Notes under the pieces: model-generated
The model's database searches: none
What the model was told of the DNA's origin: nothing
The model's input: only the letters and a program-made list of their open reading frames with translations
Shown here: positions 8,421-25,612 of the stretch, piece after piece
Layout of the letters: the number at the start of each line of letters is the position of its first letter
Numbering within the stretch: the stretch's first letter is position 1
Position numbers and translations under genes: made by a program
Origin: a virus
Strand: one strand, 5' to 3'
Length of the DNA stretch: 25,612 bases
Virus record (IMG/VR): IMGVR_UViG_3300025098_000255
Coordinates: 1-25,612 of that record

Positions 8421-9515
8421 CTACGGAGTAGCAATTTCATCTATGTGAAGGTGATATTGTGGAGGACCGAAGTCTATTCCCATCTCCATATAGATTGCTT
8501 TTGCAACTCTTGCATAGTCGTCTTGGTCAATGTCTCTTACGAAAACAGTTCCTTTGCCAGGAATGTTTGTGAAGATAGGACTTACATAAGCCATATCTAC
8601 GATATAAGCATCATTGCTTCCTAAGATGTTTGAGTCAAGAACCATCATTCCAATAGAGCCAAATGGTGTAATGATAGTATCAATGTCGATACCTCCTACA
8701 TTTCTGTCTCTTGGAAGAACAGCAGCAGTTGTACCACCTGATTGTGGGTTATGTAGCTGCTTGTTAAGTTCTAACATGTTAGCTGAGTTAACCAATAGGA
8801 CTGGATTCTTAACTGGTGCTGAAGCATCATAAAGTTTCTTTAATGATTTTGCTACGCCATCCCAGTCGAGTTTCTTAGCAGTACCACCTGTAGCTTCTGT
8901 AGCTGTGTTGAAATATTTGTTACCACCATTCAACGCAGTATGAGCTGCAAGTCCTCTAAATGTTCTATTGTCTCCAACAGGGTTAGAGGCATGAACACCA
9001 TCTGCAAAAGTACCATTGATAGCGAAGTATTCTACTTCCCTAGCAACTTTTTCTAATGCAAGTTCTAGTTGTTCTGCTAGTTCGTCTGTTATTGGGTTAC
9101 CTCCGAAAAGAGCTAACTTGTCTGCAGCAGTAAGTGTTCCGTCACCGTCTGAGGTGTTGAATCCTGCTGCGCCTAAATCAAAGGCATTTTGTTGGTTGTA
9201 AGCTGCCATAGCTGTGTATGACATTTTTACACCTTTATGAAATATCTGCGTAACCTGAGTATACGCTCCTCTATTTCTACCAAGGTATTCTGTTGGCTGT
9301 CCGCCTTCAGTTCCTTCTGTAGGTGCTGAAGAGATTGTCTCGTTATCAGCAGTTTGGAATTGGAAGAAAGTAGATTGTATTACTTTTCCTCCGCCTGACA
9401 AACCACCAATTGCAGATAAGAAAGGTGTTCTTTGACCACCTACACGAAATAATTCTCCTTGAAAATTATTTATATCGCTTGTGTAGATTGGGTCAGGGGT
9501 TGATATTGGTCCCAT
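8421..9515 (-). CDS. Major capsid protein (HK97-fold)
   Basis: This complete 364-residue gene starts with AGGAGAT before its ATG, 14 bases after the scaffold stop. The N-terminus (residues 15-40, with TPFLSAIGG) and the segment with VTQIFHKGVKMSYTAMAAY around residues 88-106 are typical of the SU10/DUF5309-type major capsid proteins, which adopt the HK97 fold. The C-terminal part (PVLLVNSANMLELNKQ, then GIDIDTIITPFGSIGMMVLD, then a GTVFVRDID segment) follows the order seen in those families. The length is normal. It forms the procapsid shell with the scaffold encoded immediately before it and is followed by a terminator hairpin, as expected for the most abundant virion protein. Confidence 0.9.
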   Translation of the reverse strand: MGPISTPDPIYTSDINNFQGELFRVGGQRTPFLSAIGGLSGGGKVIQSTFFQFQTADNETISSAPTEGTEGGQPTEYLGRNRGAYTQVTQIFHKGVKMSYTAMAAYNQQNAFDLGAAGFNTSDGDGTLTAADKLALFGGNPITDELAEQLELALEKVAREVEYFAINGTFADGVHASNPVGDNRTFRGLAAHTALNGGNKYFNTATEATGGTAKKLDWDGVAKSLKKLYDASAPVKNPVLLVNSANMLELNKQLHNPQSGGTTAAVLPRDRNVGGIDIDTIITPFGSIGMMVLDSNILGSNDAYIVDMAYVSPIFTNIPGKGTVFVRDIDQDDYARVAKAIYMEMGIDFGPPQYHLHIDEIATP

Positions 9516-10160: not shown

Positions 10161-11249
10161 CTAGACTTCTTCTAAGCCTGCAACTTCTCCTGTTTGTGTT
10201 TTCCTAGCACCTGTATCTAATGAGCTGAGAGATGCTTGTTGATTAAGAATACGCTGTTGTTCTATTACAGCTTGAGGGTCTTGTTGTACTTCTGAAGAAA
10301 TAATATCTTGTAGTCCTATCTCAGTGGTTCTACCTTGTCCTGTACGTAGTCTGTTTAGTCTTTGAATATACTCTGAAGCTCTACTAAATAACCTTTGACC
10401 ACCTGATTGTGTAATACCTGCTTGTATTAATCTTTGTGCTTGTTCTGTAGATAAATCTAAGTTTCTTAATGCAGCTTCTGCTCCTAGTTCTGCTTGTTGT
10501 ATCTGACCTTGTAATATTCCTATAGAAATGTCAGGGTCAAGTGCTGCTGCAAATACAGCATTGTCAGACAAATCAATATCGAAGTTAGCTGAATAATAAG
10601 TTTTAATTTCATCTGCTATAGGGTTATCTCTAAATGCTTGTCTTGTTGATTCTATTCTACCTTTAAATTCTGCAACGCTCACGTCTCCTGCAATTAATGC
10701 AGCTACTTTACCTCTTGCTTCAAAGACAATAGGGTTTAAATCATTCTCTAATAATATTCTATAAAAACCTTCACGAACTTGTTCGTACTGTGATTCATTC
10801 ATTCTTAATGAACCATCACCTCTTTTGATACCAGGATAATACTCTGCATACTCACCTAAGTTTCTAACTGCAGCTAATGCAAACTCTGCACTACCTGTCT
10901 CTATGTACTGATTTGTATACTCTTGTAACAAGTTACCTTTACCTGCTAACCAAGGTATTAAATCTTCTATCTGTTGAGGAGTAGCTACAAAATCAGGAGA
11001 GCTTGTACTAGAAGCTCCTATGTTTTCTATAGCAGTGCTTAGTTTATTAAACAATGAACTAAAGTCCCCAGTTAAATCATCATCACCTTCGTCTGTATCA
11101 GTATCTGTAGCACGATTATCTGTTAAAGAATATCCTTCTCCTAATAATTTGTCTAAGTCTTCTTGATTAAATGCTTCATCTCCTCCTGGAGGTGAATCAT
11201 ATCTATATATTTTTACACCTTTTTTAAAATCTTCTTCTGTAAATTCCAT
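10161..11249 (-). CDS. Helical internal virion protein, unknown (362 aa)
   Basis: This complete 362-residue gene has an ATG that forms a TAATG overlap with the 413-residue gene. The N-terminal 60 residues are acidic and Asp-rich (a TDTDTDEGDDD stretch), while the rest is helical and rich in Ala, Gln and Leu (AELGAEAALRNLDLSTEQAQ and LRTGQGRTTEIGLQDIISSE). The C-terminus is Gln-rich and disordered. No signal peptide, membrane segment or enzyme motif is visible. It is the last gene of the block that includes the giant protein and the lysozyme-like protein, and helical Gln/Ala-rich proteins in such blocks are typical of ejection or internal-core proteins. I do not recognise a family. Confidence 0.75.
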   Translation of the reverse strand: MEFTEEDFKKGVKIYRYDSPPGGDEAFNQEDLDKLLGEGYSLTDNRATDTDTDEGDDDLTGDFSSLFNKLSTAIENIGASSTSSPDFVATPQQIEDLIPWLAGKGNLLQEYTNQYIETGSAEFALAAVRNLGEYAEYYPGIKRGDGSLRMNESQYEQVREGFYRILLENDLNPIVFEARGKVAALIAGDVSVAEFKGRIESTRQAFRDNPIADEIKTYYSANFDIDLSDNAVFAAALDPDISIGILQGQIQQAELGAEAALRNLDLSTEQAQRLIQAGITQSGGQRLFSRASEYIQRLNRLRTGQGRTTEIGLQDIISSEVQQDPQAVIEQQRILNQQASLSSLDTGARKTQTGEVAGLEEV

Positions 11250-12490
11250 TATCCTTGTCCTGTTATTGTCGGGCTAAGATATACTGGACTAAATCCTAGC
11301 TTAGATAAATCTTGACCCATCTTTTGCAATGCACCTTCATCTCCTACGTTAAGGAAGTGTGCTGTTGCTTGTTTTCTTTGTTCACTTGGGTCATCAATAG
11401 TAAACAAATTATAAACTAAATCTCTATCTCTACCTGTCTCATCAAGCCTACCGTATCTATTTGCCATAGTTCTAATGCCAATAACAGAGGTAGTGTAGTT
11501 TTTACCTTTGTATTTATCCGCTACATTCTCATCCCATACTGTTTGAAGTTGTGCATCTAATAACTGTGAGCCATTAGTTTCAGCTAAGACATTACTAAAT
11601 GTTCTATAGTCATCATCTGTAAACAACCCTGATAAGTACGGTCCTACTTTTGCATTAACTTGGTCTTTAGCTTTATCAATGTAAGCTAAGTTATCAGGTA
11701 TAGATATATCTCGAGATGACATAAACTCAACAATATCGTCATTTCTAAATCCTGGAATTTCAGGAAATACTAATAACTTATACTGTTCAGCTAATGATTC
11801 TTTTGTAAGAATACCTTTAACTCTTTGGTCATATAAATAATCTAATACATCTTGTGGTACTTCATACTGTGCATACTTAGAAACTAATCCTGCAAGTTCT
11901 ATCTTTGCAGTATCTTGTAGTCTTCTTAAAGTTGCATTGGCTTTAGGGTCAGTACCTAATGCCTGAGCTTTAAAGTATGCTAACTGGTCTCCTGATAAAG
12001 CATTTATGTAATCACTAGCAATAGCATAATCCTTGTACTCTGCAGGTCTTCCCTCGAATAAAGATTCTAAAAATACTCCTACTGCATTAAAGTTACCATC
12101 AGACTCAGCAGCTTTAAGAATATAATCATTTAATTTAAGTTCGTCTTTTAAATCATCTAACAATAGATTGAGAGGGTTTCTACCTTTCATTCTTGTATCT
12201 ACTTCAGATAAATCTCCAAAGAATAATCCACTAGCTTTTATATCATCTACATTACCTGTAGTAAAACTTTGTTTATAGTTTGTTGTGTCTGTGTAATACA
12301 CTGTTACATCTTGGTCAAGACCATCTATGTCTTCTGCTTTTAATGTATATATAAAGTAAAACAAACCATCATCACCTTTAATTAATGTATCAGCTACAGG
12401 CATATCCTCTATTGGAGGAGCAGCACTGAGAGATTCGTCTATAATTTTGTTTAACTCTTCTTCAGATAAAGTGAAATCGTATTCTTCCAT
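11249..12490 (-). CDS. Helical internal virion protein, unknown (413 aa)
   Basis: This complete 413-residue gene is joined at both ends by TAATG overlaps to the lysozyme-like gene (upstream) and the 362-residue gene (downstream). Residues 1-100 are acidic and partly strand-like (GDDGLFYFIYTLKAEDIDGL, then VTVYYTDT). From residue 110 the sequence is predominantly helical, with Ala/Leu-rich segments such as LNALSGDQ-type turns and TLRRLQDTAKIELAGLVSKY. The C-terminal 100 residues contain RTMANRYGRLDETGRDRDL and a mixed-charge helix. No known motif or membrane segment was found. By context it is a component of the internal or ejected virion complex, comparable in position to its two neighbours. 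Confidence 0.75.
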   Translation of the reverse strand: MEEYDFTLSEEELNKIIDESLSAAPPIEDMPVADTLIKGDDGLFYFIYTLKAEDIDGLDQDVTVYYTDTTNYKQSFTTGNVDDIKASGLFFGDLSEVDTRMKGRNPLNLLLDDLKDELKLNDYILKAAESDGNFNAVGVFLESLFEGRPAEYKDYAIASDYINALSGDQLAYFKAQALGTDPKANATLRRLQDTAKIELAGLVSKYAQYEVPQDVLDYLYDQRVKGILTKESLAEQYKLLVFPEIPGFRNDDIVEFMSSRDISIPDNLAYIDKAKDQVNAKVGPYLSGLFTDDDYRTFSNVLAETNGSQLLDAQLQTVWDENVADKYKGKNYTTSVIGIRTMANRYGRLDETGRDRDLVYNLFTIDDPSEQRKQATAHFLNVGDEGALQKMGQDLSKLGFSPVYLSPTITGQG

Positions 12491-13365
12491 TATTTAGCAC
12501 CTTCTACTTTTTTCTTACTAAGCTCTCCTAAAAAGTTTAGTATAACTGTATCTAACTCTGAGTAATTAGAACGTACATCTATAGGTATTTCTGCTGTATC
12601 TAATCCTTTCAAGCTAGCTAACATCAATGAAGATTGTCTTATAGTCTCAGGATTAGTAGGGTCTGAAGGATTAATTTTCTGTGCAATCTTATCCCTAGAC
12701 CTTTCAAAAGATACTATCTCTCTTTCCGTAAAGTTTTTAATTCTTCTTTCCTGACCTAGACCACCTCTGAAATCACCACCACCAACAACTTCAGGTGCTT
12801 CTATATCAGGTGCATCTGAGGCTTGTGGTTCTTCTCCTAATGTTTCTGAACCTGTACTATAGAATGCATCAACATACGCATTGATACCTGCAATCACATC
12901 TGACTTTTGTCCTGCTGCATCAGTGCCTCTACCTTTAGGCATTTGACCATTTAGATAAGGTTCTACATAATCTGTGTATCCTTCCCATACTGAGAAAGGA
13001 TTATTGTTATTATCTCTGACTATAGGAAACTGTTCAGGATTAGCTTTTACGTCATTTAAATAAGATATCGCAAAGTTTGCATTATACTGTGGGTCTTTCA
13101 ATGCTTCTTCAAAATCTGATTCAGACAATGTATTACCTGTAGATTTAAAAAATTTACTTAATGATGGGTCAGGTTCATTGTTGTCATCATAAAAAGAACT
13201 TGCATTTATTTGAAATAAGCCTATAGCTTTTGTTGTATCATTCTGTGCTTCAGTCTCAAAGTTTGATTCATAAAAAGCAGTCATAACTAATGTAGGAATA
13301 TCTTCTTTTGAAGCTCCTGCATTCTCTAAATATTTTACAATCTCTTGAGCAGTTACCTTTGCCAT
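12490..13365 (-). CDS. Virion lytic transglycosylase-like (lysozyme-fold) protein
   Basis: This complete 291-residue gene is joined by TAATG overlaps on both sides. Residues 1-140 match the soluble-lytic-transglycosylase/lysozyme pattern: an E-S-N-F catalytic block with Glu33, GLFQIN at 49-54, an AxxYL-type helix (FAISYLNDV), and a FSVWEGYTDYV segment near residue 125. The catalytic Glu cleaves between MurNAc and GlcNAc in peptidoglycan; family knowledge suggests a local hole in the wall during genome entry. Residues 150-290 are Pro/Asp/Glu-rich then helical, probably for docking with other virion proteins. The neighbours are giant and helical virion proteins, and there is no holin beside it, so it is more likely a virion-associated wall-degrading enzyme than the endolysin. 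Activity is not shown by sequence alone. Confidence 0.8.
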   Translation of the reverse strand: MAKVTAQEIVKYLENAGASKEDIPTLVMTAFYESNFETEAQNDTTKAIGLFQINASSFYDDNNEPDPSLSKFFKSTGNTLSESDFEEALKDPQYNANFAISYLNDVKANPEQFPIVRDNNNNPFSVWEGYTDYVEPYLNGQMPKGRGTDAAGQKSDVIAGINAYVDAFYSTGSETLGEEPQASDAPDIEAPEVVGGGDFRGGLGQERRIKNFTEREIVSFERSRDKIAQKINPSDPTNPETIRQSSLMLASLKGLDTAEIPIDVRSNYSELDTVILNFLGELSKKKVEGAK

Positions 13366-14960
13366 TATGCTCCTCTACCTAAATTTCTTAGACTACGTGA
13401 TGCTTGTGCAAAGTTAGCTGTAGCAGCATCAAATGCACTTTGCCTTGCAGAAAAATCTTTTTCCTCACCGTATATATTATCAATAGCTCTATTGAGCCTT
13501 CCATTAAATAATGCAGAAAATCTTTCATTCTGTCCTGTTAATGCAAACGGATTACCTGGTGTTGCTGAAGGTCCAAGCTCTTGACTTGTCTCAACCCTAA
13601 ACTCTTTCATCTTTGTAGAAACTAATGTATCTAACATTTGGTCATCTGCAAAAGGATATTGTTGTTTAAGAGATTGTTTGTATCCTTCTTCACTTCCATA
13701 CTTATCCAACCATCCTTCATAACCTAACTGTTTAACTTGTGCATCTATATCTTGTTTAATGTTTTGTGTAACCATTCCATCCATATCACGTTTAGTTACT
13801 TCAAGTAACGAATTAACAACTCCTGCTAAAGACTGAGCTTGTGTAAAACTAATTTTATCTGCACCACCAAAGTAGTTACGTACTGCATTCATAGCTATGT
13901 ATCCTGCAGACTCAGTGTCATACTTAGGTACATCTACTGTATAGTTATCTAATAAACGTTCTTCTAAATCATTAACATCTGTATCTAATTCATTAAAATA
14001 AAAATCTCTAATTTCTCTTTTCTTGTCTTCTGTAAATGCATACTGACTCTTATATTGTTTTGCTGCATCACCTGAATAAATAATCTGATTAGGGTTAGAA
14101 GGGTTTATAATTTGTTCTACTACTTCACCATCCTCATTTATTCCTACTGTTGTAGATAAAGTAAGTAACGCACCTTCTATAGCAAAACCATCATCAAAAT
14201 ACGGCACTCTACCTTCAAGGTTGTGTGATGTCATTGATGCAGATATAGCTGCTATTGTAGGTGCGTCCATTGTTCCAGCATCAAAACCACCAACAAGATA
14301 ACCTGATTTAACTAACTTAGTTTGTAAGTCTCGGACGTATTGTTCTCCTAACATATCGTCCATAAACAGGGTTGTTATTAGTGGTGTGATATACACAGGA
14401 TTGTCACCATATCCCTCACCTGCACCTTTATATCCTAAAGGTGTTCCCAAAGTTCCTTCAAATCCTAAAAACTGTGTTACTCCCTGAGTACCTAGCCTAA
14501 GCTGTATAGCTTCATCAGGTGTAAGTGGTGCAACAGGGTCGTTGATTCCAGGAAAAAGATACTCTCCATCTTCATCCTTTTCCATTTCTTCTAGTTCCCC
14601 ATCATCATTAATTACAAATCCATACGGAGGTTTATAGTTAGGGTCTGTGTAATATTCTTTAACAGCTTGGTCAATTTCGCTCGGTGATAAAGCTCTAGGT
14701 ATAACTCCACCTGAACCAACTTCAGGTCCTGGAGTTTGATTTGGTCCTGATGCTGCACCAGTTCTTTGTCCTTCTTCTAATCTTTGTTCAAATAATGTAT
14801 AGTCGGTAATAGGTATTCCTGCTGTATCTACTGCATTTCTTACTTCACCCGTATCAGTGTTATACCATAATGCTTTAGAATAATCAGTAGAAGTAGCTGC
14901 AGTAAATTCTGAAACTGCACCTGAGTTTGTAAATAATACTTTAGAAATTAGTTTCCACAT
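13365..14960 (-). CDS. Internal virion protein with peptidoglycan-binding-like stretch (531 aa)
   Basis: This complete 531-residue gene has TAATG overlaps with the giant protein (upstream) and the lysozyme-like gene (downstream). Residues 208-246 (YVRDLQTKLVKSGYLVGGFD, then GTMDAPTIAAI) match the pattern of the PG_binding_1 fold: a leucine-glutamine helix, GY, G-x-F-D-x-G-T, then a T-x-A-A-I helix. The N-terminal 150 residues are Gly/Pro/Asp-rich and acidic and may be disordered. The C-terminal 230 residues are helical (EERLLDNYT, SLAGVVNSLLEVTKRDMDGM). It is probably a virion protein that helps the neighbouring transglycosylase-like protein reach the wall. A coincidental match to the 40-residue pattern is possible. 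Confidence 0.7.
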   Translation of the reverse strand: MWKLISKVLFTNSGAVSEFTAATSTDYSKALWYNTDTGEVRNAVDTAGIPITDYTLFEQRLEEGQRTGAASGPNQTPGPEVGSGGVIPRALSPSEIDQAVKEYYTDPNYKPPYGFVINDDGELEEMEKDEDGEYLFPGINDPVAPLTPDEAIQLRLGTQGVTQFLGFEGTLGTPLGYKGAGEGYGDNPVYITPLITTLFMDDMLGEQYVRDLQTKLVKSGYLVGGFDAGTMDAPTIAAISASMTSHNLEGRVPYFDDGFAIEGALLTLSTTVGINEDGEVVEQIINPSNPNQIIYSGDAAKQYKSQYAFTEDKKREIRDFYFNELDTDVNDLEERLLDNYTVDVPKYDTESAGYIAMNAVRNYFGGADKISFTQAQSLAGVVNSLLEVTKRDMDGMVTQNIKQDIDAQVKQLGYEGWLDKYGSEEGYKQSLKQQYPFADDQMLDTLVSTKMKEFRVETSQELGPSATPGNPFALTGQNERFSALFNGRLNRAIDNIYGEEKDFSARQSAFDAATANFAQASRSLRNLGRGA

Positions 14961-17900
14961 TATTGGTCTGCCTTATATAATTGTTGGTTATAAGTATAGC
15001 CGTATCTTATCAACTCTTCTTCATTCTCTCTGAGTATTCTATCCAAAACTTGTTCATTTAAAAAGCTAAACAAAGGATATGCTTTAGATATCTCTTGTCC
15101 TTTTAATCTTAATTGGTCTCTTGCTAAATACCAATTAGCGTTTGTTGGGTCAGAACCAGGTCTACCTGTCTCTGTTGAACGTACTGTAAGTATATTATCA
15201 TAACTTTCTAGCCATATCTTTAAACCTTTTATAACTTCTTCATTCTGTAAATCAGGGTCTTCAGACATTTGATACAACTGTTTTAGTTTAGTTCCTAAGT
15301 CTGTAGGACTTTCTGTCCTAGGTTTTTCTAAATAACCAGGAAAATAATCAGCTAAAGTATCTTTGTATGTCGTAACCATAATCTCTCTAATAGCTTCGTC
15401 TGGTACAAACTGTGGACTATTTGGGTCAGTTATAACTCTTCTGTATCTTTCAAGAGCCATTCTTCCTGCAGCTTGATTGTGTAATTGCGCCCACTCTCCT
15501 AAGTCTAAGTCTGTTCTAGCAGAATAATCTCCTAGATAATTGTCATCAAAAGAGTTAACCCAAGATGCCATAACGAATTCATCTGTTCCAATATCAGGTC
15601 TTACATAGTAAAACATATCAGGATAAATTTTATATTTTTCTTCATTGTCCATTGCATAATCTAATGCTTCATCTGTATAAGGTACTCTTCTTATTTCTTT
15701 TGACTTTGAAATAATCAATGCGGTTGGGTCAGTACCAAATAAGTGTGTAAATACTTGAGTAGCTATAACTTCATCCTCGTATTCTCCAAGTAATCTACCG
15801 TACACACTTTGTAAAACATTGAATCCAAATATTCTACCTTCAGGGTCTATACCTCTATCTCTCAAATACTTAGGGTCTACATGCATACTTTTTCCAGGTT
15901 CTACCTCTAGCTCCCATCTAAATGATGGAGACACAAAAGTAAACTGTGCTGCTGATTTAATTAAATGCATAACAAGTGCATCTTGTTTTGTTCTCTGTAA
16001 AATCTTATTCATCTCATCTTGTGTTCTTGGTTCACGACCTTGCTCTATAGCACCACTAACTAACTTAGCTCTTAGTACTTCTTTCTGTGTATTAGAGTAA
16101 GCTCTTGACCAAGACTGAGGACTTGTACTTATTGCAGAACCTAATTTTTGAATCCATTCAGGTAATAAGTAATCTGCTGCTTGTTCTACAGCATTACCTG
16201 ATGGTTCACCAAAAGGAAATATAAACTCGTATAATGCAGAAGTTTCTTTCATATTAGGCATAATTGCTTTTGCTGCTATCTGTGCTACAGGTCCTACTCC
16301 AGGAACTAAACCACCTGCAACTATGTTTGCTGATGACGTAAATCCTACAGCTCTAAGGTTTACTTCACTTCTAGGTTGCTGTCCACCTAGGTCTCTACTT
16401 TGTACATTTTGGAAAAAGTTTCTAAGTATAGGGTCTACTAATGGATATACAAATACTTCTTCGTTTGTGAGTTCATCAGTATATACCATAGGCTTATCAT
16501 CTGCTGCATCCCCACCTAAGAAATCAAAGTTAAATGGATTACCTTCTTTTAAAGTATCTGTTGTTATTTGTAACTTACGTAGTTTTCTAGGGTTTTCTGT
16601 AAGTAATCTTGTCCACGTTTTAGCTATTTCTAAATGAACTTCAGCGAAAGGAAATAGCAATGCATTAGCCTGTGTAAACTGTGACCTGTTGTTTAAGCTA
16701 TATAGTAATTCTTCTGTTTCTGATAATGCTGTAGCTTTAAGAAAATCATCAATATTTTCTAACTCATCTACACTTACACCAGTACCTTTTGGTTTAGGTA
16801 CTAACTGGTCAAGATATTGTCTAGTAGATTTTGGCATAGCTTCCATGATGTCTTTGTTCTTGTATAGCTCTGCTAAAGTATCTGCTTCAAATCTGTCTGC
16901 CATCTTTTCTAAGTTACGATAGTAAAACTGTTTAAAAGCAGGCGCTCTTGATAGTTTGTTTGTTGGCGTTGACATAAAGAAATCAAACGCTCTTTCAATA
17001 GCTCCATTGTATGATTTTACATCTACATCATTAATCATCTTCTTAGATACTTTTACTACGTCAGGTCCATTCTCTGCATAGTCACTAAGTATCTTTGTAC
17101 CTGTTTTAAATTGTCTTTCAGTGTTCAGACCATTCAATGGCATTTCAAAACTTCTAGTTTTAGTGTTTATCATTAGCTTTCTATTAGCAATCCACTCTAT
17201 GTATTGAAATGTTTTATCTCCTGGAACAAGTTCATACAACATACGTATAGGTAAATCACCATCATTTGCTCCTGGGTTTTTATAAACTACACCTTTATTT
17301 ATTTCAACAATGTATCCTTTTTCTAATGCTTCTTCAAAAGATACTGTAGATAAGTCAGGTATTTTATCAGGGTCAAGTTTTGGGTTTTGTACATATTTTT
17401 TAAATCCACCACCACCACCTACTTTGTCATATAGTCTAGCAGCGTATGATTGCAGTAACTCCATAGTTCTGTCTTTGTCACCACGAATCATTTGCCTACC
17501 TGTATTAGTTATGGCATCACCACTATTAGTCCATTCCATAAATGTTTTCTTAGCTGCTTGTGCAGATTTAGTATTATCTAATACAGCTAATCTTTCTGCA
17601 GGAAAATTACCTGTTAAGTAGTCTCCTAATTCATCTAGGTTTCTAAATGGTGTTCTTGTAGCTTTACCATTATCTGCTAGTACATTAGCAATAACAACCA
17701 TTAACTCATCATCAGCTAGCTGTGTCATTTCTGTTAACCAACCTTTAGCGTATTGTCTACGGCTTTTAGTACTATTAGTAACAGAATCTCTTTTAATAGT
17801 TTTAAAGAATCTATCTACAGAAGATGCTTTACGCATCATAATTCCATTAGAACCTCTTGACATTGCTTGTTTAAATAAAAGTTCTTCAGACATCTTTCTA

Positions 17901-20900
17901 CCTAAAATATCTACTTCTCCTTTTTTTAAACCTGCTACAAACTTTTCTCCAAGTCTTACGTCATCAGGAAAAGGTAATATATCTAAAGCCTTACTTATAT
18001 TATTTACTAAATTACTATCGGGTTTGAGAACATAACTCATATGAGCTACAGGATGTGACCATACATTAGTCATGTCTGCTGCAAACATTCTTAATTGCTC
18101 TTCTGCAATAACCCTTGTTGTCCACGCTAATCTTAACAATGTAAAAGGTTTCCATGCTTGTTGCATTGCGTTGTTTGCCCAACGTATGTATGCTTTGTTA
18201 ACAAGTTTTACACCTTCATCTGTAGCTATTTGTGAATAAAACAATTTTGCTATATTCTTAGTAACAGCATTAGAGGATATGTTACCTACATTAAGTGCTG
18301 TGTTTATCTGTGTAGGTGTTGTTAACTGATTAAGTATCTCAAATGTTTCATCATCAATAAGTTCAGCAATCTCATCTGAGCTTTTAGCATTTAAAGTAGT
18401 TCCTGATATTTTTTCATATTGTTCTATAACTTCTTGTTTAGCTTTAAGTTGTAACTCTCGAATGTAGGACTGTTTAACTTTCTTATCTGAAGGTGCTTTA
18501 ACTGGCAATTCCCAATTAGATAAGAACTTTTTAAACTCATCATTAGTTTTAGCTAAAGACAATACAGGGTTTCTATCTAGTTGTTTACCTAATAGCTGTG
18601 GTAAGTCTAATCTTTTAAGACCAGTTAATGTACTTAACCCTGAGATTTTTAACAGAGAGTTACGATATGTACCTAAAACTCTAAATACTTCGTTGGTATC
18701 AAACAAAGGAATATTACCTACAAGCATTTCTGACATAAGCATTGCAGTAGGTTGTGCTATTTCTTGATTACCTAGTGTAATCATAAACTCAGAAATCTCA
18801 TCAGCTTTACCTGCTCTAGCTAAACCTTCAAGTTTTTCTAAATCAAGTTCTGTTTTAATCATATCAAATGCTGTATCTGCTGCTTTTGTAGATGTTTTTG
18901 AAGTACCGAACCCAACATCAACAATATGTTCTCCTACTAAAGATACCCAATACTTTCTTGCATCATCTATCTCTCCAATAAATTTTGTAATACCACCTGC
19001 TAAAGGACCAGGAAAACCTTGAGATGTCATTATCTTTTGCAGTTCTCCTAACACACCTGCATTCTTTGGTGTACCGTCTCCTATAAGTAGTTTAAAAAAT
19101 TCTTCGGTTTGTCTTAGTTTTGAGTATGTACCTTGTTCAGCAAACTGACCTAATATAGCTGCATCTGTAGTTGCAAGTTTTTTATATAAATCTTGTTTAA
19201 TGTTCTTTTCAAAAGGTAAAGACTTTATAAGTTTTTCCATTTCTTTTAATCCTTGTGTGTGTGAAGCAGAAGTAATAAATGTAGGACTAACCTGACCAAA
19301 TATTCTAGCAATAGCAGTATCTTTAAAAGTTCTTTTAGCTACAGCAGATACTCCTAAGAAATTACCCATATCAGATAAATCTACTAAGTTACCGTCACCT
19401 GCAACTCTTCCTGCTTTTCCTAGTAACTTACCTGCATTTCTTGATACGCTACCTTTGAAAGCATAGCTATATGGGTCTAGTCGTTTTGTTATACCACCAG
19501 TTCTAACTTCTCTAGCAATACTTTCTGATACATTTCCTACATTAGGATTTTCTAATATATCTTGTAGAGTAGAAGGACTAGCTTCAGGCATAAGCTGTCT
19601 TAAACTTTCATAATCTAATGACTTATTGGTTACACCATCTGATATAAATTCATAAATAGCTTTACCTGTTGTCATATGCCATTCTTCAAAATCTGTTTTA
19701 TTTAATGATGGTTTTAAAAACTTTTGTAATCCTGATGCATTTTTAGCACCTTCAATATCTGCTATATGTCTATTCTTAAAGTTAGTAACCATTTGTTCAA
19801 CATCTCGTTCTAAATCCCATTGAGACTTTAATCCCATTACACTTTGTGGTTCTCTATCTTTGTTCCACTTAGAAAAGGCTTTATCTCTTCTTCGTCTTCG
19901 TGCAGCCTTGCCCAGTGGATTCCAAATAGATTTATCTAATGCAAATTGTTTTGGTGATTTACCTTTAGCAACCCAAGTGTGTGCTAGCTCATGGAGTATA
20001 GTATTATCTATCAGCTCATCCATAGTGTCGAATTGTTTAGCTTGCCACTTATGGTCAGACTTAAACCATTTATAAAATTCTTTTATATGACTTTCATCTG
20101 CATCTACCCACTTTAAAACAGCTCTACCAACTTCTTCATCAAAAGTAATATCACTACCATATCTGTTTAAAAACAATGCAAATTTATTATTTTTAACTTT
20201 ATTTAGATTTACTAAGTCAGCCATCTTATTACCAGTCATGTTTAATATTGCGTTGTCTACAAAACTACCACCAGTTCCTGTTCTTAAACCTTCTGTAAAT
20301 TTTCCATTACGAAGTTCTGCATTGTCATAAAATTTTATATTGTGTACAAACTTGTCATCTACACCACGTGTATAACCTTCACCATAACGATTAGCTCTTA
20401 AAAATTCTTGATACTGTCTACTATTGTTTATCTGTGCGCCTTTTCTACCATTGGCTCTAGCTATTTCATTTAATTCATCCATAGTGTATGTGATGTCACC
20501 ACGAAGTATTGTTTCTCCTACATCAACACCTACAACATTTTTATACTGAGCAGCATCTGACATTTTAAAAACATTAGCAGTAACTGCTTCATCTGATACT
20601 TTAACTGTTTGAAACAATCTATTGCCTTGACCTATAAGAGTTCTTGCTCCTACATTGCCTCCACTAGATACTTTTTCACCAACAGAAAATGCTTTACCTG
20701 CTTTTCCAAGTTTACCAACCCATGCACCTGCAAGGTTTGCAGGGTCTAATCCTAAAGTAACAGCACCATCAATAAGACCTGATATAAACTTAAACCTATC
20801 TGTTCCTGGTTCAGCCATTTGTACTGCAGCTACTCTTCCAGGACTTATAGTTACACCACGGTATTTATTAGATTCTAACTTTTCTCTTTGTGTTCCTGTT

Positions 20901-21631
20901 ATATCAAAACCAAGTTGTCCCTGTATAACTTTCTCTATTGCAGATAATTGTTGCGGGTCAGATATAGTTTGTGATAGCTCTTTATATATATCTGTATCTC
21001 TAGCAAGTGTAGAGTTACCAAAATATCCACGTCCTAGGTTTACTCTATTACCTTTAGCCATTTCTTGTATTGCATATCCTGCAGTTGTAGGTCCTAGTTC
21101 GTCTTTAGCTGTTTCATAATCTTTACGAAAATTACCGTACGCTTCTCCACCCATTGTCATTTCCATTATTGGTTTATCTAAACCAACTAAGTTTGTAAGT
21201 GTGTGTAAATATGCTAGGTTTACATTCATTCCATTGTCTATTAATGAACGTGCTGATGCTTGAAAAGGTCTTTTAACTGTAGCTTCTGCTAAAGAATCCA
21301 TACCAACAAAAGCATTTCTTACAAGTCCTCTACCTGCTGCTTTTGTTTTTTCCCAAAAACTTGAGTTCTTTTCTTTTTCTAACTCTTCGTATCTTTCTAA
21401 CAGTAAACCTACTTCAGGAGATATAGAAGAAAAACCCATTAAAGCACTACCAACCATTATGTCTTTAGGTAGAACGTTACCCCATTTATTTACAATGTCT
21501 TCTAAATTATTACCAACTTGAGGTTTTTGTTGAATAGTTTGTTTAATAGCATTATATTTTTGTTCTCGTTCATTAGATTTATTTATGTAATCTTCTTCGA
21601 GGTCAGGTGGTTCGTAAGCGTAAAATGCCAT
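14960..21631 (-). CDS. Giant internal virion protein (2223 aa) with HELAH zinc-peptidase motif
   Basis: This is the largest gene of the window, over a quarter of its length. Its ATG lies two bases after the TAA of the 120-residue gene, and no ribosome site is evident, so it is probably coupled. Residues 547-551 are HELAH (HExxH), the zinc-binding, catalytic signature of zincin peptidases. A downstream YEFISDG segment carries Glu661, a candidate third ligand as in phage polyvalent peptidases. A five-Arg run sits near 574-581. The rest is long and mostly helical, with an FPFAEVHLEIAKTWTRLLTE block near 1656-1676 of the type seen in large marine phage virion proteins, and hydrophobic stretches such as FISGLIDGAVTLGLDPANLA. 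Proposed roles are cargo, ejection and host-protein cleavage; none is proven. It is not a clear tape measure or RNA polymerase. Confidence 0.8.
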   Translation of the reverse strand: MAFYAYEPPDLEEDYINKSNEREQKYNAIKQTIQQKPQVGNNLEDIVNKWGNVLPKDIMVGSALMGFSSISPEVGLLLERYEELEKEKNSSFWEKTKAAGRGLVRNAFVGMDSLAEATVKRPFQASARSLIDNGMNVNLAYLHTLTNLVGLDKPIMEMTMGGEAYGNFRKDYETAKDELGPTTAGYAIQEMAKGNRVNLGRGYFGNSTLARDTDIYKELSQTISDPQQLSAIEKVIQGQLGFDITGTQREKLESNKYRGVTISPGRVAAVQMAEPGTDRFKFISGLIDGAVTLGLDPANLAGAWVGKLGKAGKAFSVGEKVSSGGNVGARTLIGQGNRLFQTVKVSDEAVTANVFKMSDAAQYKNVVGVDVGETILRGDITYTMDELNEIARANGRKGAQINNSRQYQEFLRANRYGEGYTRGVDDKFVHNIKFYDNAELRNGKFTEGLRTGTGGSFVDNAILNMTGNKMADLVNLNKVKNNKFALFLNRYGSDITFDEEVGRAVLKWVDADESHIKEFYKWFKSDHKWQAKQFDTMDELIDNTILHELAHTWVAKGKSPKQFALDKSIWNPLGKAARRRRRDKAFSKWNKDREPQSVMGLKSQWDLERDVEQMVTNFKNRHIADIEGAKNASGLQKFLKPSLNKTDFEEWHMTTGKAIYEFISDGVTNKSLDYESLRQLMPEASPSTLQDILENPNVGNVSESIAREVRTGGITKRLDPYSYAFKGSVSRNAGKLLGKAGRVAGDGNLVDLSDMGNFLGVSAVAKRTFKDTAIARIFGQVSPTFITSASHTQGLKEMEKLIKSLPFEKNIKQDLYKKLATTDAAILGQFAEQGTYSKLRQTEEFFKLLIGDGTPKNAGVLGELQKIMTSQGFPGPLAGGITKFIGEIDDARKYWVSLVGEHIVDVGFGTSKTSTKAADTAFDMIKTELDLEKLEGLARAGKADEISEFMITLGNQEIAQPTAMLMSEMLVGNIPLFDTNEVFRVLGTYRNSLLKISGLSTLTGLKRLDLPQLLGKQLDRNPVLSLAKTNDEFKKFLSNWELPVKAPSDKKVKQSYIRELQLKAKQEVIEQYEKISGTTLNAKSSDEIAELIDDETFEILNQLTTPTQINTALNVGNISSNAVTKNIAKLFYSQIATDEGVKLVNKAYIRWANNAMQQAWKPFTLLRLAWTTRVIAEEQLRMFAADMTNVWSHPVAHMSYVLKPDSNLVNNISKALDILPFPDDVRLGEKFVAGLKKGEVDILGRKMSEELLFKQAMSRGSNGIMMRKASSVDRFFKTIKRDSVTNSTKSRRQYAKGWLTEMTQLADDELMVVIANVLADNGKATRTPFRNLDELGDYLTGNFPAERLAVLDNTKSAQAAKKTFMEWTNSGDAITNTGRQMIRGDKDRTMELLQSYAARLYDKVGGGGGFKKYVQNPKLDPDKIPDLSTVSFEEALEKGYIVEINKGVVYKNPGANDGDLPIRMLYELVPGDKTFQYIEWIANRKLMINTKTRSFEMPLNGLNTERQFKTGTKILSDYAENGPDVVKVSKKMINDVDVKSYNGAIERAFDFFMSTPTNKLSRAPAFKQFYYRNLEKMADRFEADTLAELYKNKDIMEAMPKSTRQYLDQLVPKPKGTGVSVDELENIDDFLKATALSETEELLYSLNNRSQFTQANALLFPFAEVHLEIAKTWTRLLTENPRKLRKLQITTDTLKEGNPFNFDFLGGDAADDKPMVYTDELTNEEVFVYPLVDPILRNFFQNVQSRDLGGQQPRSEVNLRAVGFTSSANIVAGGLVPGVGPVAQIAAKAIMPNMKETSALYEFIFPFGEPSGNAVEQAADYLLPEWIQKLGSAISTSPQSWSRAYSNTQKEVLRAKLVSGAIEQGREPRTQDEMNKILQRTKQDALVMHLIKSAAQFTFVSPSFRWELEVEPGKSMHVDPKYLRDRGIDPEGRIFGFNVLQSVYGRLLGEYEDEVIATQVFTHLFGTDPTALIISKSKEIRRVPYTDEALDYAMDNEEKYKIYPDMFYYVRPDIGTDEFVMASWVNSFDDNYLGDYSARTDLDLGEWAQLHNQAAGRMALERYRRVITDPNSPQFVPDEAIREIMVTTYKDTLADYFPGYLEKPRTESPTDLGTKLKQLYQMSEDPDLQNEEVIKGLKIWLESYDNILTVRSTETGRPGSDPTNANWYLARDQLRLKGQEISKAYPLFSFLNEQVLDRILRENEEELIRYGYTYNQQLYKADQ

Positions 21632-21996: not shown

Positions 21997-22216
21997 TATC
22001 GTCCTCTATCCATACCATTTGTAATTTACCGAATCCTGGTACATAAATAACTGTTAAGCCATTCATGTCTATCCACTCTTCAACACTATTGTCTTCTTGT
22101 AGTTGGTCATTTAAGTATAGCTCAGCTACATCAACTTTGTTTACTTCCCAATCTTCAGCCATAATAATTTGATGAAACAGACTGTTAGTCCTATCAAAAT
22201 TCATATTGTCTGCCAT
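21980..22216 (-). CDS. Unknown small acidic protein (78 aa)
   Basis: This 78-residue gene starts at ATG 22216, sharing one base with the portal stop (TAATG), with GGAGC just upstream. It is acidic (for example EDWEVNKVDVAELYLND, DNSVEEWIDMNG), with a mixed helix then strand pattern and an acidic C-terminus (EDDNDTRS). No motif I recognise is visible and there is no membrane segment. Its start is coupled to portal translation and its end overlaps the next gene, both signs of a real gene. The role is unknown; a small portal or packaging accessory is a fair guess. Confidence 0.7.
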   Translation of the reverse strand: MADNMNFDRTNSLFHQIIMAEDWEVNKVDVAELYLNDQLQEDNSVEEWIDMNGLTVIYVPGFGKLQMVWIEDDNDTRS

Positions 22217-23985
22217 TACGCTCCTTGTTGTAAGAGACTTAATACATCTTGTGGATTAGGAGGAGGTCCACCTGCTTGCGGTGATGGTCCACCCATTCCT
22301 GCCATCATTGCTTCTTCAGGGTTTGGTTGTGGTTCTTCTGCTGTAAAAAACTTTTTAAGTATCTGACCTATAGAATTTGGTTTATTGTATATCTCAACTA
22401 ATGCCATTTGTGCTTTAGCGTCATTGTTACTAGCTCTAGCTAACAAAGATTGAAACATAACTTCTTCTGCTTTATCTTTTGTAATACGTTCATTAATAGC
22501 TTGTAAATCATCTAGTCCATCCATTTCACGCTGCATAGTCTCTTTGTCTATAATACCTGCTTGTAATAATTGCAAACCTGTAATAACTTTTCCTGCTTCA
22601 TCAAATGTAGCCATAGCACCATACTTACGTCTTGTAAGATAGTTACCATCAATATCTGTACCTGGTGTATAGTTTTCAGCAAACGCTGAACCTCGTAGTG
22701 TACCTACTAAAGGTTTACGTTTATTCAAAACTAATTCATCAAGCTCTAATCTTTTGTAATCTATTTGTTGTATACCAACTTGTAATACTTTGTGATATTC
22801 ATTAACCATAGCTCCAATACCTGCTTGTAGTTCTTCTAATCCTCTACCTGTTACAAAGCTATTAGGAGATATAGAGTCATCTTGTACTGGGTAACCTGCG
22901 ACTGTTCTTAGGTGTCTTTCTAGTCTTGATACTTGGTCAAACAACTGATACGGTAAGTTGGTTACTGGTTTTATAACTTGTGAACCTGGTGACAAATAGT
23001 TAATAGCATTTCTACCTTTTCTATATTGTCCTGATTCTATTTCACCAACTATGTTTGTTTCTGTAAATACAGCATCTTCCATAGCAATGATTGACATAAT
23101 GTTTATCTTTGCCATAGCAGCCATTAATCCTATAACTTGGTCAAACTGTCCTTGTATTTGGTCAAAAGAATATCTCTTTACACAAACAAATGCAGGTCCT
23201 GATTTCAATGGATTAGGTACAAAGTCAACTATAGTTTTTGACGCTACGTGTACTATGTATGTACCTTCAGGATTAATATATTCAACAATAACTTCACCTG
23301 ATTCATTTTGATTTTCCCATGAACCATCTTGTCCTGGATTTGTATATAAGCCTGATACAAAGTTATAAGGTTCATTTGTTTTACGACCTTGGTCATTAAA
23401 CCAACCTTTAAGTTCAGGATACATTTCTACTAGATATTCTCCTGGTACTTTTCTAATTGACACAAGTTCTTCTGCCATTTGATTAGCACCTTGATATCCA
23501 GGGAATGTAGAGTAAGGGTCTCTTAGTTCTGCTGTTGGATATACATTACCTTGTGGGTCTGTCTTTGTAGTAATAACCCATACAGCAAATCCATAACCTG
23601 GTAGCCATCTAGCAACTTGTGGTAATTGTAAATCTAAATTTTGAAATTGGTCATAAGCAGTAACTACACGTTCTAACTTATCTTTTTTCTTTTTATTTCT
23701 TTCACTATCTCTAGGGTTTGTGATATGAACATCTAAAGCAGGCGCTCTACCTATCTTCTGAGCTAGTCTGTCTAGTGCAGATACTAATAAGTTTGGAGCA
23801 GGAAGTAATTCTGAATCCATGTTGTTTAATGCAGGACCGAGTAATGCTGCTAGTCCTTGTTCCCCACCATTCATAATTGCTCTAAACCTTGCTCTATCAG
23901 GCAGAGCTTCATCATGCATTTCTTTAAGATGCGTGGTTCTATTTAAAATATCTTCTACTAACAATCTATCTCCATGGAGCGTCAT
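22216..23985 (-). CDS. Portal protein
   Basis: This complete 589-residue gene starts inside the last codons of the terminase (20-base overlap), a normal arrangement. Length and order (large terminase, then portal) fit a phage portal, the dodecameric ring through which DNA is packaged and released. The N-terminal part includes SALDRLAQKIGRAPALDVHI and a W-x-x-G-Y-G region around residue 107; the middle has repeated strand segments ending in VVEYINPEGTYIVHV; residues 270-420 are helical (IGLMAAMAKINIMSIIAMED, then HKVLQVGIQQIDYKRLELDE). The C-terminus is Pro/Gly/Gln-rich, with an NPQDVLSLLQQGA end. The portal call rests on order, length and overall pattern rather than a short invariant motif. 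No MuF-like domain is visible. Confidence 0.85.
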   Translation of the reverse strand: MTLHGDRLLVEDILNRTTHLKEMHDEALPDRARFRAIMNGGEQGLAALLGPALNNMDSELLPAPNLLVSALDRLAQKIGRAPALDVHITNPRDSERNKKKKDKLERVVTAYDQFQNLDLQLPQVARWLPGYGFAVWVITTKTDPQGNVYPTAELRDPYSTFPGYQGANQMAEELVSIRKVPGEYLVEMYPELKGWFNDQGRKTNEPYNFVSGLYTNPGQDGSWENQNESGEVIVEYINPEGTYIVHVASKTIVDFVPNPLKSGPAFVCVKRYSFDQIQGQFDQVIGLMAAMAKINIMSIIAMEDAVFTETNIVGEIESGQYRKGRNAINYLSPGSQVIKPVTNLPYQLFDQVSRLERHLRTVAGYPVQDDSISPNSFVTGRGLEELQAGIGAMVNEYHKVLQVGIQQIDYKRLELDELVLNKRKPLVGTLRGSAFAENYTPGTDIDGNYLTRRKYGAMATFDEAGKVITGLQLLQAGIIDKETMQREMDGLDDLQAINERITKDKAEEVMFQSLLARASNNDAKAQMALVEIYNKPNSIGQILKKFFTAEEPQPNPEEAMMAGMGGPSPQAGGPPPNPQDVLSLLQQGA

Positions 23986-25612
23986 TCCATTCTACTACAT
24001 CAAAGCCATCATAGCTAGGAGTGTAGTCAATTCCCATATCAGAATAATGAGCTTTTTGCAACTTACGCAAAACCTTAATTGGAAACCAACTTGCCATAAC
24101 TATATCAGATTTGTATACATTTTTCCGTTTGGCAGAAAAATAAGATAACTGTTTCCTATACATTTCAGATTTAATCTGTGACTCTGTATTACCGTATGGC
24201 AAAACAATTAGTTTATCTTGAAACATAGGAGCTAAAGAAGTTACACCAAAGTGACTATCCCATTTGTTTTTATAGGTTTCATGTCCTTCAAGAATAATTC
24301 CATTTACATTTGCATATTCTTTTATCCTAGGGTCTTGACGTATAGCTTTCTGAAAGTTGTTTTCTTCAATAACCCAGTGATATAAGTTATACATTTTGTG
24401 CCATTCTTTAATAACTTGTAATGCTTCTTCTATACCACCACCTTTGTTATTTTGTATATCTATCATCTGTAATAGAGAATCTTCCCCATTATCTAATATT
24501 GCCCATAAAAATGCTGCTTGATAACCTGATGCTGCAGGGTCTAGTCCTGCAACTAAATAGGAGTTTCTTGGTATCTTTCCTACTACTTGCGTATTGTCCA
24601 TACATTCTGTAATTGCTTCTACATTAAAAATAGATGCTCCACCTTCTCCTGGTCTATTCTGATAAACCATTTCAAATCTTTGTAAACCACCTGTAGTCAT
24701 AGCATCTCTACGTCTTGACATTAACCATTTGTATGTTCTAAATCCTGACCATAACATACAGTCTACGTGTTCTTCTTCTTCTAACTCAGGTATTTGACAA
24801 CCTGAATCATGTGCTTCTTCCACGATAGTTTCCCATGCTTCTGAATCTAATAAGGAACTATAGATATCGTCAGGATGCTGTCTTGAACCAATAACAATAA
24901 TAGCTGTATGTTCCTCTTTACGTGATGCCAACGTTGTTGTCCACCAGTTTTTTGTATTATGTCTTGCACGTGGTTGTGCAGTAGAAGCGTGGTCTTCAAT
25001 GTCATCTGCAATAATTAAATCACAGTCACGAGAAAGTATCTTACCACCCTTACCTATACCAATAAGCGTTGGTGATTTTATACCGTGTACTGTTCTTGTA
25101 GATACAGTAAAACCATTTTGTGACCAAGATTTACCAGTTCTTGTTTTAGGTTTAAACGTACCACCTGGTCCACAAAAATCTTCTTTAAGTCCTTCGTTTG
25201 ACTCTAATGTATCTATTACAGAAGACACTGAGTTCTTTGCAATATCTTCATTACCACCTACCCACATAATTCTTATGTTAGGATTTTTCATAATACGCCA
25301 AATAGTAAAGTGAATTAACAACTCAGTCTTACCATGACGTGGAGGTGACAGTATCATTTGCTGTCCACCTTCTTCTATAGCTTTGTTAAGTGAATTAATC
25401 CACTCCATATGGAATGGTGCAGTTTCAAATGGAATACCCTTCTCCGTTAAAAAATATCTATTTCTAAATTCTACAAATGACTCTAATGCTTCAATAGCTT
25501 GTTCAGGTACATCCCAATCAGCTTGTGCTTTTTCCGATTCTAAATCTTCTTGATATGCTGCAAGAAATCTTGATATCTGTGCTTTAGATACTTTAAGTAT
25601 TTTAGCTGCATC
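23966..25612 (-). CDS. terL: Terminase large subunit, 5' end cut by window
   Basis: The frame is open through the edge of the window: 68 codons precede the first methionine at 25408, and residues around that Met continue smoothly (FETAPFHMEWINSLNKAIEE), so 25408 is not the start. Numbering from the window edge, Walker A SPPRHGKTE is at 89-97, Walker B LIIADD at 199-204, and a coupling-type IVIGSR at 239-244. The C-terminal RNase H-like nuclease has Asp358 (VAGLDPAAS), Glu417 (WVIEENNF) and Asp503 (KSDIVMAS) as candidate metal ligands. The ATPase drives DNA into the procapsid through the portal encoded next, and the nuclease cuts the concatemer. The small subunit is not in the window. Confidence 0.95.
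   Translation of the reverse strand, partial: DAAKILKVSKAQISRFLAAYQEDLESEKAQADWDVPEQAIEALESFVEFRNRYFLTEKGIPFETAPFHMEWINSLNKAIEEGGQQMILSPPRHGKTELLIHFTIWRIMKNPNIRIMWVGGNEDIAKNSVSSVIDTLESNEGLKEDFCGPGGTFKPKTRTGKSWSQNGFTVSTRTVHGIKSPTLIGIGKGGKILSRDCDLIIADDIEDHASTAQPRARHNTKNWWTTTLASRKEEHTAIIVIGSRQHPDDIYSSLLDSEAWETIVEEAHDSGCQIPELEEEEHVDCMLWSGFRTYKWLMSRRRDAMTTGGLQRFEMVYQNRPGEGGASIFNVEAITECMDNTQVVGKIPRNSYLVAGLDPAASGYQAAFLWAILDNGEDSLLQMIDIQNNKGGGIEEALQVIKEWHKMYNLYHWVIEENNFQKAIRQDPRIKEYANVNGIILEGHETYKNKWDSHFGVTSLAPMFQDKLIVLPYGNTESQIKSEMYRKQLSYFSAKRKNVYKSDIVMASWFPIKVLRKLQKAHYSDMGIDYTPSYDGFDVVEWNDAPWR

Follow-up and report, generated by a model that had tools for sequence, protein, structure and literature searches.

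A clade-specific insert with a probable zincin-like peptidase site in the putative giant ejection protein of marine podoviruses distantly related to Streptomyces phage Immanuel3

The window analyzed here is the whole stretch of 25,612 bases from a virus record (IMG/VR record IMGVR_UViG_3300025098_000255). It has a GC content of 35%, and its main genes lie on the leftward strand. The late genes that could be assigned a known or probable function are the following:

23966..25408, minus strand: terminase large subunit (phrog_38, 1.8e-63)
22216..23985, minus strand: portal protein, 589 aa (21-25% identity to Streptomyces phage portals)
14960..21631, minus strand: giant ORF P0001, 2223 aa, probable internal virion or ejection protein of the Immanuel3 gp09 (phrog_10618) type
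13365..14960, minus strand: 531-aa protein, probable internal virion protein, by position only
12490..13365, minus strand: SLT transglycosylase/lysozyme (PF01464, 3.8e-07), likely ejected alongside the giant protein
11249..12490, minus strand: 413-aa protein, probable internal virion protein, by position only
10161..11249, minus strand: 362-aa protein, probable internal virion protein (phrog_8424, 5.2e-18, annotated as of unknown function)
8421..9515, minus strand: major capsid protein (phrog_1328, 1.8e-32)

The operon runs in the order terL, portal, two small genes, giant ORF, 531-aa gene, SLT lysozyme, 413-aa gene, 362-aa gene, scaffold-sized ORF (152 aa) and major capsid protein. The giant ORF is thus the third gene beyond the portal, and this order bears out the initial annotation, which had described a 2223-residue protein between portal and scaffold; the frame lies on the minus strand. 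It begins with ATG and is close-packed against the neighbouring genes, its stop sharing one base with the start of the 531-aa gene. Judging from its place in a block of lysozyme-type genes bounded by portal and scaffold, the giant protein is probably an internal virion or ejection protein, packed inside the particle.

Several other genes of the window and of related contigs deserve mention. Two adjacent genes at 748-1999 of the window each match phrog_7084 (7.5e-44 and 3.1e-19) and are apparent tandem duplicates from a family of unknown function. Positions 2-427 hold part of a 588-aa protein that continues at 25208-26974 of a 36,447-base contig (L130+L131) and begins with a signal-peptide-like segment, contains one Thr run and one Pro run, and has a long acidic tail. 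The same contig encodes a giant protein identical to that of the window and, at 30832-33052 on the minus strand, an AAA+ ATPase adjoining a protein with a DASGSM (vWA-like MIDAS) motif, an arrangement that, read by eye, recalls MoxR-vWA pairs. In the lineage of contigs L033 and L110, a 294-aa protein (L110:16284-17168) has the size and position of the window's SLT lysozyme and gave no tblastn match; it is probably a lytic enzyme, either much diverged or acquired as a replacement.

The nearest named portals, those with 21-25% identity, belong to Immanuel3-type Streptomyces podoviruses, and the same phages top the terminase list at about 26-27%. It is this kinship of the terminase, portal and capsid that suggests an actinobacterial host. 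The actinophage marker WhiB was searched for in ten related contigs and found in none of them, and a scan of GTDB genomes for relatives of the insert or of the portal gave none.

Comparison with relatives divides the giant protein into three segments. Their coordinates, and those of the candidate active-site residues discussed below, are as follows:

20657..21631, minus strand: residues 1-325, N-terminal module common to relatives without the peptidase domain (BLAST alignment of 9-325 with 10-315 of L039, 38%)
19586..20656, minus strand: residues about 326-682, clade-specific insert with the zincin-like site; catalytic part at about 370-625
19979..19993, minus strand: HELAH, residues 547-551, with predicted zinc ligands His547 and His551 and predicted general base Glu548
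19808..19810, minus strand: Glu608 (in WDLERDV), conserved candidate third zinc ligand, invariant in alignment A1 and replaced by Asp only in L031
19649..19651, minus strand: Glu661 (in YEFISDG), earlier candidate ligand, not conserved
14963..19585, minus strand: residues 683-2223, giant-family core, of which the 1545-1978 region is related to Streptomyces phage gp09

By profile comparison, the core of the giant protein is homologous to Immanuel3 gp09 (phrog_10618). A profile of the shorter relatives matched 485 columns of gp09 with a probability of 96%, a profile of the domain-bearing group matched 350 columns with 78%, and the relative L039 matches phrog_10618 at 1.6e-7; direct tblastn searches with the giant protein found no homologs in known phages. 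The gene order in Immanuel3 (Beephvirinae) is terminase, endolysin, portal, small genes, gp09, gp10, gp11 (peptidase), gp12 (glycosylase), gp13, tRNAs, scaffold-sized gene and capsid, and the window's block, with its SLT lysozyme neighbour, matches gp09-gp13 in order. Like the giant ORF, gp09 follows the portal, precedes lysozyme-type genes, scaffold and capsid, and shows the homology in its C-terminal part. In contrast, it has only 1648 aa and lacks an HExxH motif. The gp11 'peptidase' of Immanuel3 was considered as a counterpart of the insert and rejected, as it also lacks HExxH; its sequence looks like that of an NlpC/P60 protein. The family tolerates accessory domains, since a 2925-aa giant homolog (L045:12241-21015) carries a cpYpsA/SLOG domain elsewhere in the protein (PF12694, 1.9e-12, best match at residues 1388-1426). 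This match and a below-threshold match to ASCH (0.037) lie in segments that the window protein does not have.

The insert is delimited by comparison with L039, whose portal is 67% identical to that of the window. BLAST aligned residues 9-325 of the window protein with 10-315 of L039, 683-1017 with 364-633, and 1120-2203 with 637-1620, and about 310 residues between the first and second aligned blocks are absent from L039. All farther relatives checked (about 1541-1764 aa, and about 2,900 aa in L045 and L046) are without the insert and without HExxH. In the portal tree, the domain carriers fall together with one relative that has a degenerate site, L031, on one side of a single branch with 92/100 support. 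A single gain of the insert is the simplest reading of this distribution, though it may also have been lost elsewhere. The insert is also the most variable segment of the protein, with 51% identity versus 75-86% elsewhere in a closer pair, and 20-24% in wide pairs, where the other segments reach 40-58%, or 40-62% when the pairs include the window protein. A tblastn search of 50,697 phage records gave no match to it. Such rapid change and restricted presence lean toward an accessory function; they fit cis-processing and host attack alike.

The HELAH motif at residues 547-551, reported in the initial annotation, was confirmed and is the sole HExxH in the giant protein. The protein has 17 His in total, and when its residues were shuffled 2000 times, 0.9% of the shuffles contained one or more HExxH. 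Viral contigs searched by portal yielded about 400 relatives, of which the best 80 were kept; giant ORFs likewise sit downstream of the portal. Within the nearest, segment-bearing clade the motif reads HELAH, HEQAH, HELVH, HEATH, HEAVH or HEAEH. The H/E/H residues are invariant in all 13 sequences of alignment A1 and in 18 of the 19 sequences of alignment A3, while the two intervening residues differ from subgroup to subgroup. Across the insert, A1 has no more than 17 invariant positions out of 300, among them His547, Glu548, His551, Gly557 and Glu608; the H/E/H residues and Glu608 are kept even in relatives with as little as 20% identity across the insert. In one contig (L132:1357-7462) the giant gene is split into two ORFs between an HEAIH motif and a conserved block, by either a frameshift or an assembly error.

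The third ligand proposed initially was Glu661. It is present in the window protein, within YEFISDG as described, but the position is occupied by E, Q or N in relatives, and we therefore rejected it. Glu608 is preferred because the acid at this position is invariant, and from the alignments it is most likely the third ligand. It lies 57 residues past His551 in the window virus and 41 residues past the equivalent His in L023, a relative with a short version of the domain.

One relative provides a natural loss of the site. In L031, HSTVK replaces HExxH and Asp replaces Glu608, with the rest of the domain conserved, whereas none of the remaining 18 sequences in A3 departs from any of the four residues. 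A joint change of HExxH and Glu608 is expected if both form one site. We regard this decay as supporting rather than decisive, as it concerns one sequence and the Asp could still bind metal. The initial annotation had named homologs that fail to conserve the HExxH residues as evidence against the site; the H/E/H residues proved to be kept in all members of A3 except L031. Given the invariance of H/E/H and of the downstream Glu, and the alteration of both together in one relative, the zincin-like site is very likely real. HExxH is also found in enzymes that are not peptidases.

Structure prediction, suggested initially as a check, gave models of low to moderate confidence. AlphaFold2 modeled the window segment with a pLDDT of 55 (13 sequences) and the shorter homolog L023 with a pLDDT of 69.5, rising to 80-89 near the site (19 sequences). 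The L023 model runs from strands through a helix and more strands to the HExxH helix (163-181), which is followed by a short helix and then by a helix (208-242) that carries Glu218, the equivalent of Glu608. The HExxH and the later Glu, which is Glu608 and not Glu661, are thus predicted on successive helices after strands, at moderate confidence and with no fold match. The zincins of polyvalent proteins are described with the same order of helices and strands, the segment that joins the two helices being variable (PMC5512222). A zincin fold for the insert is likely on the basis of this model.

No known family could be assigned to the insert. Foldseek found no significant fold in PDB or among viral models, a PDB sequence search returned nothing significant, and neither Pfam nor PHROG gave a significant match. 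The best Pfam hit was SprT-like at 0.14, and the match to LPD/zincin families that the initial annotation had suggested looking for did not emerge, with no listed LPD or other domain detected by Pfam. We therefore call the domain 'zincin-like' and place it in no named family. A profile of N4-type zincins, built from the domains of eleven Schitoviruses, resembled the insert over no more than 13 columns at the motif, with P about 0.002 versus 0.2-0.9 for reversed or shuffled controls. In all eleven Schitovirus domains HExxH is followed by an NE-F/M-A block that includes a conserved Glu. Since the profile likeness covers the motif only, common descent with the N4 MPTase is not established.

The initial annotation knew of no description of this combination of features at this locus, which holds only in part. 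Zincin-bearing giant proteins are already known in N4-like podoviruses (PMC5512222, PMC12633501), and the giant-protein family itself occurs, without the domain, at the same position in Streptomyces podoviruses. The closest analog is the C1/MPTase domain of the N4 virion RNA polymerase (gp50) in Schitoviridae, also a podovirus giant protein with HExxH followed by a conserved downstream Glu, which is packaged and ejected with DNA (PMC5512222, PMC12633501). However, no RNA polymerase domain was recognized in the window protein, and in N4 the zincin follows the polymerase and such a domain is present in 11 of the 11 Schitoviruses compared, whereas the insert occurs in one lineage.

Two other systems offer looser parallels. 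Polyvalent proteins with a zincin-like MPTase (Iyer et al. 2017) are likewise very large and encoded beside late virion genes, and a relative of the window protein carries another enzymatic domain (cpYpsA). P0001 shares the location among late virion genes but has one recognizable enzymatic domain, and Pfam found in it none of the listed LPDs or other domains, where the class is defined by two or more unrelated recognized domains in one polypeptide. It may thus work like a polyvalent protein without being filed as one. The giant proteins of Microbacterium cluster EK/Burro phages (>4,400 aa) also adjoin the portal in actinobacterial podoviruses, a likeness of size and position, and no zincin has been reported in them. 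Burro gp27 is virion associated and was seen at about 250 kDa (PMC7302621); by analogy, it is a partial precedent for a giant protein packed in the virion.

Our preferred reading, to which we assign a probability of roughly two-thirds, is that the virus is a podovirus and a distant relative of Immanuel3, that its giant ORF encodes an internal virion (ejection) protein, and that in one marine lineage a zincin-like metallopeptidase domain was inserted between the N-terminal module and core of this protein for accessory proteolysis linked to delivery. The insert, the constancy of its four residues and their shared decay in L031 are seen directly in the sequences; zinc binding and proteolysis are predicted. 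Zinc would be held by His547, His551 and Glu608, with Glu548 as the general base, and the giant protein would be packed in the head and ejected with the DNA. The most probable use would be cleavage, tied to delivery, of the giant protein itself or of its neighbours in the block, which we somewhat prefer; cleavage of a host protein after ejection would be a less certain use. Iyer et al. proposed the same alternatives, self or neighbour processing versus a host protein, for the N4 vRNAP and for polyvalent proteins.

The strongest competitor is that the domain acts as an injected effector which, soon after infection begins, cuts a protein of the host, such as one serving defence or transcription. 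The insert changes faster than any other segment of the protein yet keeps its catalytic residues; it is accessory, occurs in a single clade and has decayed in one lineage there; and a relative has another accessory domain, cpYpsA/SLOG. All of this would suit such a role. Rapid change, however, is also compatible with a domain that co-evolves with the sites it cuts in proteins of the phage itself, or with one that, being accessory, is under relaxed constraint, and we hold the effector reading only tentatively. A bolder version, in which the insert would represent a distinct zincin clade, known to date from this marine podovirus lineage alone, serving within a non-polymerase ejection protein as a fast-evolving injected peptidase against a host target, seems to us rather doubtful.

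The domain might instead have a zincin fold, perhaps metal-binding, but serve in structure or binding and not as a protease. Its lack of a significant relative among known peptidases and the retention of the domain in L031 after loss of the site would agree with this. We consider it unlikely in view of the invariance of all four residues in the other members, including Glu548, which pure metal binding does not need.

Maturation of virion proteins by the peptidase, as put forward initially, survives in the somewhat preferred form of cutting in cis or of block neighbours; we disfavour the idea that the domain is essential for maturing the head. In jumbo phages, a part in virion maturation has been proposed for zincins (PMC7824862), and no other head protease was recognized within the window. 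Yet most relatives have no such domain, and those without it have homologous portal and terminase genes and an equivalent gene block, which makes an essential role of the insert in prohead maturation very improbable.

A chance HELAH in a helical structural protein, which the missing family match and the low-confidence model of the window protein would allow, is hardly credible given the 0.9% frequency in shuffled sequences, the constancy of H/E/H across divergent relatives while the intervening residues change, the invariant Glu608 and the coordinated loss in L031.

Zincins in giant phage virion proteins are thus already known, and what appears to be new here, as judged from sequence comparison, is a clade-specific insert in the gp09-type family. 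This extends zincin-like domains to a second giant-protein family, without a detected link to the N4 RNA polymerase. Related viruses carry the same giant protein with the insert, without it, and with a degenerate site, and this natural comparison makes the role of zincins in giant ejected phage proteins, whether in self-processing, delivery or host attack, testable.
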